A stretch of 16,838 bases of DNA from Actinomycetota bacterium. GTDB lineage: Bacteria > Actinomycetota > Thermoleophilia > Gaiellales > Gaiellaceae. Below the pieces are notes generated by a model. That model was not told the DNA's origin, did no database searches, and saw nothing but the letters and a program-made list of their open reading frames with translations. The position numbers and the translations under genes were made by a program. The stretch spans positions 46,663-63,500 of the forward strand of contig PMMN01000075.1 of NCBI GenBank assembly GCA_003162235.1, in the 5' to 3' direction. Shown here in pieces: positions 1,038 through 15,531 of this stretch; position 1 is the first letter of the stretch, and each line of letters starts with the position of its first letter.

Positions 1038-1265
1038 GTGAGCAAAGCGCCGTCCAGGATCGAGCTGCTCGAGCTCGACATCGACACGAGGCTCTGCGAT
1101 CTCTGGCGTGAGGCGCTCGAAATCCAAGATTGGAACCTAGAAGTGGTGGCGGCCTTCATGCGCGCTGCCTATGGCAAGGGTTACTGCGACGCCCTGACCG
1201 AGGACGATCTCGGCCGTCTCTGTGCCGATCACGGCTATCGCGTACCGGACCGTCGCGCCGCCTGA
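1038..1265 (+). CDS. Small hypothetical protein, 75 residues
   Basis: I do not recognise this protein. It is a short, probably helical, cytosolic protein with no signal peptide or membrane segment. It is rich in Leu, Glu, Asp and Arg in the first half (ELLELDIDTRLCDLWREAL), with an aromatic/Gly patch (AAYGKGYCDAL) near residues 44-54 and a basic tail. It uses a GTG start with no Shine-Dalgarno sequence but with a TANNNT box 7 bases upstream, which suggests leaderless translation. It is divergent from the phosphomannomutase gene. Its stop codon touches the 3' end of structured element A, which lies on the opposite strand. The composition looks like a genuine protein rather than a shadow frame, and no competing frame in this stretch has recognisable homology. 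Confidence 0.6.
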   Translation: MSKAPSRIELLELDIDTRLCDLWREALEIQDWNLEVVAAFMRAAYGKGYCDALTEDDLGRLCADHGYRVPDRRAA

Positions 1266-1435
1266 GGGCTTATCCCGCCAGATCTGCACGCCCGAAGCGG
1301 CCGCCCCGCGGCGCCAGTGGCCACCCAGACCGTTCGACGCACTACCAGTGCGCCTTCAAGGCCCGTCCGACCTTTGGAACTCGTCTCAATACGAAGCACT
1401 CCGCCGCTTGGCCGCGCTCGGCGGCGCAGAGGCTC
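1266..1435 (-). ncRNA. Structured intergenic element, copy A (candidate non-coding RNA)
   Basis: The reverse complement of 1266-1435 matches element B (15367-15529, plus strand). About 107 bases at the 3' side align without gaps, with roughly 80 identical by eye. Predicted stems on this strand: P2 (1410-1417 with 1286-1293), P3 (1365-1370 with 1325-1330), a GCACT-ggt-AGTGC hairpin (1339-1351) identical in both copies, and P5 (1319-1324 with 1297-1302). Against copy B, P3 has a C-G for U-A exchange and P5 a G-C for A-U exchange, both compensatory. Several other changes only swap Watson-Crick for G-U pairs on this strand, which sets the orientation. The outer closing stem is weaker here than in B (a five-pair CCGCC/GGCGG remains). 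No strong promoter is seen, so this may be a degenerate or differently controlled copy. Boundaries are approximate. Confidence 0.5.
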
Positions 1436-1519
1436 GTTACGACTCGGTCGTTACGGCATCTGAGCCAATAGCGAGCGGCGAGAGGGGGAGTCCGAGCTTC
1501 GCTGACGAAGTCGCACTCG

Positions 1520-15339: not shown

Positions 15340-15367
15340 TTGAGCGACTAAAAGCAGTCGGTATAAA
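15340..15367 (+). promoter_or_regulatory. Promoter of structured element B
   Basis: TTGAGC (15340-15345) and TATAAA (15362-15367) are separated by 16 bases, close to the housekeeping consensus and the best -35/-10 pair noticed in the window. Transcription would start near 15373-15375, inside the left arm of the closing stem of element B. It is divergent from the aldolase gene, and no reading frame of credible length begins just downstream on this strand, which fits an RNA gene. Confidence 0.6.
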
Positions 15368-15529
15368 GAGCCTATCCCGTTAGGAATGCGCGGCCGAGGT
15401 GGTCGAGGCGTGGATGCTAGGGGTTGGACGGGCTGCGAAGGCGCACTGGTAGTGCATCGAGCGGTCCAGGCAGCCGCTGGCGCCGCGAAACGGCTGCATC
15501 GGTTGTGCGGGCCTAGCGGGATAGGCTCT
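15367..15529 (+). ncRNA. Structured intergenic element, copy B (candidate non-coding RNA)
   Basis: A 163-base element closed by perfect 13-base arms (15367-15379 with 15517-15529). The stem continues inward through T-G and four more pairs to 15384/15512. Inside are P2 (15388-15395 with 15501-15508, three G-U pairs on this strand), P3 (15424-15429 with 15464-15469), the hairpin GCACT-ggt-AGTGC (15443-15455) and P5 (15470-15475 with 15492-15497). Copy A preserves P2, P3, P5 and the hairpin, with compensatory changes in P3 and P5. G-U pairs would become A-C mismatches on the other strand, so transcription on plus is favoured, in agreement with the promoter at 15340-15367. No T-rich terminator is seen; the element ends two bases from the stop codon of the convergent coiled-coil gene. 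I do not recognise it as 6S, SRP, tmRNA, RNase P or a known riboswitch. Confidence 0.58.
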
Positions 15530-15531
15530 AA

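Follow-up and report, generated by a model that had tools for sequence, protein, structure and literature searches.

A probable MITE of Thermoleophilia carrying a conserved, strand-specific RNA hairpin

The element found at positions 15367-15529 (plus strand) of the window, that is, of the whole stretch of 16,838 nucleotides analysed here, is probably a MITE (non-autonomous transposable element) of Thermoleophilia, with an RNA hairpin that is conserved and strand-specific. The data back its IS5-type ends, its TNA-type target duplication, its dispersal, the conservation of its core across genera with unlike ends and a selection for folding on one strand, from which we infer a function of the RNA. 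The original prediction had seen in this element (copy B) and in a relative on the minus strand (copy A) a non-coding RNA family, to which a mobile repeat was the alternative. Selection on structure was indeed recovered, but the copies are also dispersed, with inverted repeats at their ends and duplicated targets. An RNA family and a mobile repeat are thus no true alternatives: the element is both, and is not a stationary two-copy ncRNA gene.

Anatomy of the two copies

Copy B is a complete element of 163 bases with TNA-type flanks. Its terminal inverted repeats of 18 bp, at 15367-15384 (plus strand) and 15512-15529 (minus strand), were delimited by unit extraction and by the end pattern, which both ends match with zero mismatches. 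The flanks are imperfect, the left target trinucleotide (15365-15367) being AAA and the right one (15529-15531) TAA, with a different first base. Between the repeats lies the structured RNA core (15385-15511, plus strand), equivalent to positions 1-127 of our model R1, which comprises the 127 central positions, ends removed, of 31 sequences of the window's genus plus L061 and L062 from family f8; copy B scores 125.8 bits, being itself one of these 33 model sequences. No open reading frame of at least 100 amino acids was found inside 15367-15529, hence no transposase gene within the element.

The predicted fold of copy B reaches -115.5 kcal/mol (z -9.9; none of 200 shuffles equally good), and that of the opposite strand -72 kcal/mol (z -5.3). 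The fold backed by the family is a single long imperfect hairpin, with 66 pairs in copy B, and over the minimum free energy pairs of B a mean of 91% of the family cells are paired. The perfect closing stem announced by the original prediction was recovered, with 18 uninterrupted pairs in the fold instead of 13. Among the proposed inner stems, P3 is poorly supported (49-97% per pair across the family), and P5 (80-98% per pair) may form an alternative local hairpin but falls outside the best fold. The apical hairpin GCACTGGTAGTGC (15443-15455 in copy B, plus strand) is identical in the alignment of A and B, as claimed.

Both copies are real and related, since bases 56-163 of B align by blastn with positions 1265-1372 of the window at 78% identity. 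Copy A had been placed at 1266-1435, of which 1265-1372 (minus strand) stands as the 3' two-thirds of an element lacking its 5' arm (R1, 53.9 bits over 1283-1402); the remaining 5' part, 1373-1437 (minus strand, limits approximate), belongs to a second dispersed repeat family, and the same replacement is seen in L014 and L029. The stability of copy A with its flanks, taken alone, is ordinary (z -1.05). This second family, with GAGCTCGTTT-type ends, was also met in L016, in L017 and in genome G001, where one copy (L108) occupies the locus orthologous to that of copy B. It is nested with the element both ways: L016 lies between pieces of the second family, and the same family interrupts the copy L028/L014.

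The absence of a match to an existing RNA family was also confirmed: in Rfam 15, no family reaches its gathering score in the window or in 12 element-bearing loci, and the best matches remain far under it. The weak matches to rnk_pseudo and Bcj14 lie elsewhere in the window, not at the element, and two weak microRNA-type matches in L181 were similarly discarded (31.1 bits for a gathering score of 90, and 21.9 for 51).

Dispersal and target duplications

The claim of two copies did not survive a search of the assembly to which the window belongs (size 1.87 Mb, completeness 77%), in which copy B has at least 41 blastn matches; 40 of the 75 first-look candidates were scored, and the count includes fragments of a single interrupted copy (L014 and L028). 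Among 61 genomes, with up to 13 candidates scored in each, all six of the window's genus carry the element and the other 55 gave no match. From the copies with retrieved sequence, 70 end-bounded units (140-185 bp) were extracted, together with 10 shorter ones (42-66 bp). These short hairpins, such as L158-L161 (46 bp each, from position 101), L002, L024, L162 and L163, contain little beyond the two ends and are perhaps internal-deletion forms.

Occupancy of orthologous sites differs between genomes. The locus of copy B is filled in G003, with the 3' arm deleted, and holds another subtype in G002, while we read G001, G004 and G005 as carrying a short end-pair relic. The locus of copy A is filled in G003 and empty in G001 and G004, the three genomes compared, its neighbour gene not being found in G002 and G005. 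Insertion sites shared between species amount to four candidate pairs among the 70 units, some of them within the second repeat family. Copy number and the lost 3' arm in G003 rule out a housekeeping RNA. Outside their ends, L007, L041, L046, L052, L124 and L125 have flanking letters in common, ACACC to the left and TGTC to the right, as though a larger repeat had been copied with them.

In the genus units, the middle base of the TNA-like target is the same on both sides in 35 of 70 cases, for 21.4 expected from shuffling, and only 2 of 10,000 shuffles reached this agreement. Among 16 distant full elements it agrees in eight. Signs of recent movement come from G155 and G333, both of one distant genus, in which the same core sequence occupies five and three places, respectively. 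The identical copies of G155 all have matching 3-bp duplications (5/5: TAA, TAG, CAA, TCA, TTA), and duplications match in three of the four G333 copies with one end type. At least three unlike end types are in use in these two genomes, which we take as an exchange of ends. The element thus behaves as a MITE, given its 41 matches, its inverted repeats with TNA-type flanks, its IS5-type ends and its matching duplications.

Conservation of the core in Thermoleophilia

Model R1 matches 31 of 399 Thermoleophilia genomes (6 of the window's genus, 5 of genus g73 and 20 of family f10), with at most eight candidates scored per genome under stricter filters, and 3 of 396 genomes drawn from the whole phylum, all three Thermoleophilia. 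Named records with a match include Solirubrobacter (Thermoleophilia) and Svornostia, among them the cultured carriers Solirubrobacter phytolaccae KCTC 29190 (L232) and Svornostia abyssi J379 (L219). Among 80 loci of the matches listed, at least ten are clear (L201, L204, L210, L219, L232, L235, L238, L247, L264 and L267), all from the window's genus or from Solirubrobacterales. L249, from a record labelled Bifidobacterium breve, also matches, at the same place and with the same score as G262:C33. A Pseudomonas locus (L227) matches at E 0.002 only, and a Rokubacteria MAG (L270, 4916-5042) matches weakly on both strands, which may be chance.

Of the 63 distant places listed for R1, 61 were examined, in a table of 63 rows in which L313/L177 and L320/L174 each stand for a single place. 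The RNA strand folds better in all 61; both core motifs are present within two mismatches in 56, and at least 12 pairs join the outer 30-base flanks in 54. Fewer outer pairs were counted in the other seven (L323, L333, L344, L345, L179, L188 and L192), some of which are truncated, L188 having an extra hairpin. The outer arms and terminal repeats of distant members are often unlike in sequence and still paired.

In a MAFFT alignment of the 33 model sequences, 21 of 48 pairs show double changes, a number reached by none of 500 shuffles; sliding the structure by +2 leaves 20 such pairs, yet only 34.6% of cells are then paired, against 89.7%. Alignment A3 joins 23 distant rows to copies B and A and was fitted to R1, which already contains three of its rows (B, and L178 and L182, the same elements as L061 and L062). 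In this alignment, 44 of 48 pairs have changed on both sides and 92.7% of cells pair (856 Watson-Crick, 214 G-U, 8 A-C, 76 other), with a score of 0.670 against 0.199 when shuffled and at most 0.127 when slid.

Folding selection on one strand

Within the genus, 61 of the 70 units were aligned (length 158-166, score above 60), nine being left out, and over the 66 pairs of copy B they show 2912 Watson-Crick, 735 G-U, 102 A-C and 267 other cells. Changes were then counted on the branches of a tree for 61 pairs with at least 75% support. In the core, Watson-Crick pairs turned into G-U versus A-C in a ratio of 38:4 on internal branches and 98:45 on terminal ones, a bias stronger on internal branches (Fisher p 0.005). 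The corresponding ratios are 3:4 and 21:11 for the outer 12 pairs, and 3:2 and 12:2 for the six pairs between core and outer part; the overall G-U to A-C ratio does not differ significantly between ends and core (p 0.17). A DNA process symmetric for the strands would produce both changes equally, so that the large excess of G-U in the core argues for selection on the folding of one strand. It is as if the core fold mattered while a lineage spreads and was relaxed once a copy is inserted. Of the 70 genus units, 69 have the more stable fold on the plus strand, the sole exception, L041_979, being probably not a true copy. Selection on an RNA-like structure, proposed from two copies, is therefore supported far more strongly than two copies could show, by covariation, by the G-U to A-C ratio and by strand bias.

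Stop codons at the element ends and gene context

In 24 of 124 element ends a stop codon stands at offset 0 or -1 relative to the target, compared to 59 of 1934 control ends (Fisher p about 1e-11, with ends that are non-independent and genes called by a simple, crude procedure). The 124 ends come from 62 elements, 44 in the genus and 18 in distant members, and the remaining non-coding TNA sites within those loci served as controls. No gene start lies at these offsets in either set. At offset -1 the first G of the element is able to complete a TAG; for copy B, a stop codon is 3 bases away.

Such placement would suit a cis-acting 3'-end element, that is, a hairpin which, in read-through mRNA, protects or defines the ends of transcripts between genes, insertion at stop codons being harmless or useful. 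The 13 of 21 distant elements located between convergent genes point the same way. However, a co-directional gene precedes only 17 of 35 genus copies, without bias, and 15 of 21 distant members, which lean towards it, so that in many copies the wrong strand would be transcribed; moreover, the fold is less well kept on terminal branches. The orientation in the genus thus lends no support to a strict 3'-UTR role, and we consider the cis-acting explanation rather unlikely, while as a role of the RNA it ranks next after a service to the element itself.

Hairpins without the core

An ordinary hairpin MITE devoid of RNA function would owe its complementarity to a palindromic origin, and its compensatory changes would be corrections of the palindrome at the DNA level. 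The ends, the duplications and the short end-only forms are all MITE-like, and the 3' arm is missing from the G003 copy at locus B. This explanation nevertheless predicts as many G-U as A-C, against the 38:4 observed on internal branches in the core and the 214:8 cells of the distant members, and it leaves aside the internal motifs conserved across genera.

Hairpins that have such ends and no core also lack the strand bias. In seven of them, a small set, the two strands differ by 0.1 to 16.7 kcal/mol in either direction, whereas in the 16 distant full elements with the core (161-166 bp; 189 bp for L188) the RNA strand is always the more stable, by 20 to 47 kcal/mol; in this comparison L173 is given in the other orientation, and L178 and L182 are again the elements L061 and L062. 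A MITE without RNA function therefore appears improbable. A different long hairpin with the same kind of ends was seen in families f7 and f9 (L063 501-678, L064 501-679, L065 501-611), and has neither RNA core nor strand bias. Since coreless hairpins with such ends exist, movement does not in general require the RNA.

IS5-type transposases and matching ends

The end pattern, with up to one mismatch, is present in 59 of 399 Thermoleophilia genomes. Its reversed form, used as control, turns up in about 38 genomes, always as a single occurrence; a lone match may consequently be due to chance, while we read the table as showing at least two true matches, and as many as 65, in about 38 genomes. G178 contains a 928-bp element (L060 517-1444) with a perfect 21-nt repeat at each end; its transposase is encoded in two overlapping frames, possibly read by frameshift, and in this copy one stop lies within the second frame.

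The C-terminal piece of this kind of transposase, compared with 42 genomes, matches 11 of them: 7 of 18 end-rich genomes outside the genus (the other 11 having no match), 3 of 18 end-poor ones and 1 of 6 in the genus. The matches adjoin such ends in G158, G178, G149, G346, G111 and G333, the remaining ones being IS5-type without this kind of end. The pieces belong by their profile matches to the IS5 family: that of L068 scores 130.5 bits for NF033580 (cut-off 110), those of L060 and L082, which are partial, score under this cut-off, and Pfam DUF4096 and DDE_Tnp_1(_2) are over theirs. No transposase with matching ends was found in the six genomes of the genus, all incomplete. The IS5-type remnants L056 and L059 of G003 were rejected as autonomous partner, as they have no matching pair of ends. 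Among the 20 core-bearing genomes the transposase piece matches three, G111, G333 and, weakly, G155, and the RNA core had no match within 41 transposase- or end-bearing loci.

Strand-specific folding alone does not separate RNA from single-stranded DNA, and the selected form could be one strand of DNA, as in HUH transposons or integron attC sites. HUH and integron systems, however, recombine single-stranded DNA and are not known to leave such a target duplication, while 3-bp duplications and DDE transposases of the IS5 family accompany the same kind of end here, so that we regard this as slightly less credible even than the MITE without RNA function. A stationary ncRNA gene family of two or few copies, for all its real covariation and lack of an Rfam match, is very improbable in view of the copy number, the inverted repeats, the duplications and the differing site occupancy.

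A proposed transposon-borne RNA

The preferred reading remains a MITE with an RNA core, and movement by a DDE transposase acting in trans fits the evidence. An IS5-family transposase would act in trans on the inverted repeats and target TNA-like sites for insertion; these would often be stop codons, and there a stop would be retained or provided by the duplication or by the element's first G. The core would be a mobile RNA cassette able to take up new ends fitting other IS5-type transposases, and the plus strand would be transcribed, through read-through or from a putative promoter, into a hairpin of about 160 nt acting as RNA.

Among possible functions, the most likely, somewhat short of an even chance, is that the RNA serves the spread or the tolerance of the element itself, a role favoured by the stronger conservation on spreading lineages and the decay of single copies. 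More tentatively, the element may be a mobile RNA gene, in which a functional ncRNA cassette spread among Thermoleophilia genera as cargo of DDE-transposase ends, swapping its terminal repeats for those of different IS5-type transposases and inserting at stop codons that are kept or supplied, the RNA being needed for persistence or spread.

The built-in control of ends without core or strand bias, together with cultured carriers, makes a transposon-borne RNA function testable. As a caution, compensatory changes between two genomic copies do not distinguish a stationary ncRNA gene from a mobile repeat.

Comparison with known systems

We recognised no description of this element in the open-licence literature, which is weak evidence of novelty. 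MITEs are usually viewed as passive scraps of transposons. As in IS5-mobilised MITEs, the inverted repeats are IS5-type, the duplication is TNA-type, there is no transposase gene of its own and dispersed copies are numerous; what sets the element apart is its core, whose strand-specific structure is conserved and is maintained across genera with unlike ends. One fold, with nearly every pair covarying, has been kept while the ends recognised by transposases were replaced, which suggests that something selects the RNA itself.

By description, the element resembles Correia/NEMIS, ERIC, REP and related sequences, which are likewise small, palindromic and dispersed repeats with the ability to fold as RNA. 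To our knowledge, neither conservation across genera with exchanged ends nor placement at stop codons is a feature of these repeats. Palindromic repeats of this type are surveyed in PMC2267715.

The bcr1-bcr18 repeats of the Bacillus cereus group are likewise short, interspersed and intergenic, according to excerpts of two sources (PMC3446304; PMC6542083). In the first, bcr1-3 are MITE-like, and bcr10 and bcr18 are transcribed and have conserved secondary structures; in the second, mobility is tied to a TTTAT motif. This motif of bcr1-type repeats, as given in that excerpt (PMC6542083), is absent from the ends of our element, and the flanks read TNA in the copies examined. Compared on these descriptions, the bcr repeats thus differ by their phylum and by a TTTAT motif where the present element has TNA flanks and IS5-type ends.
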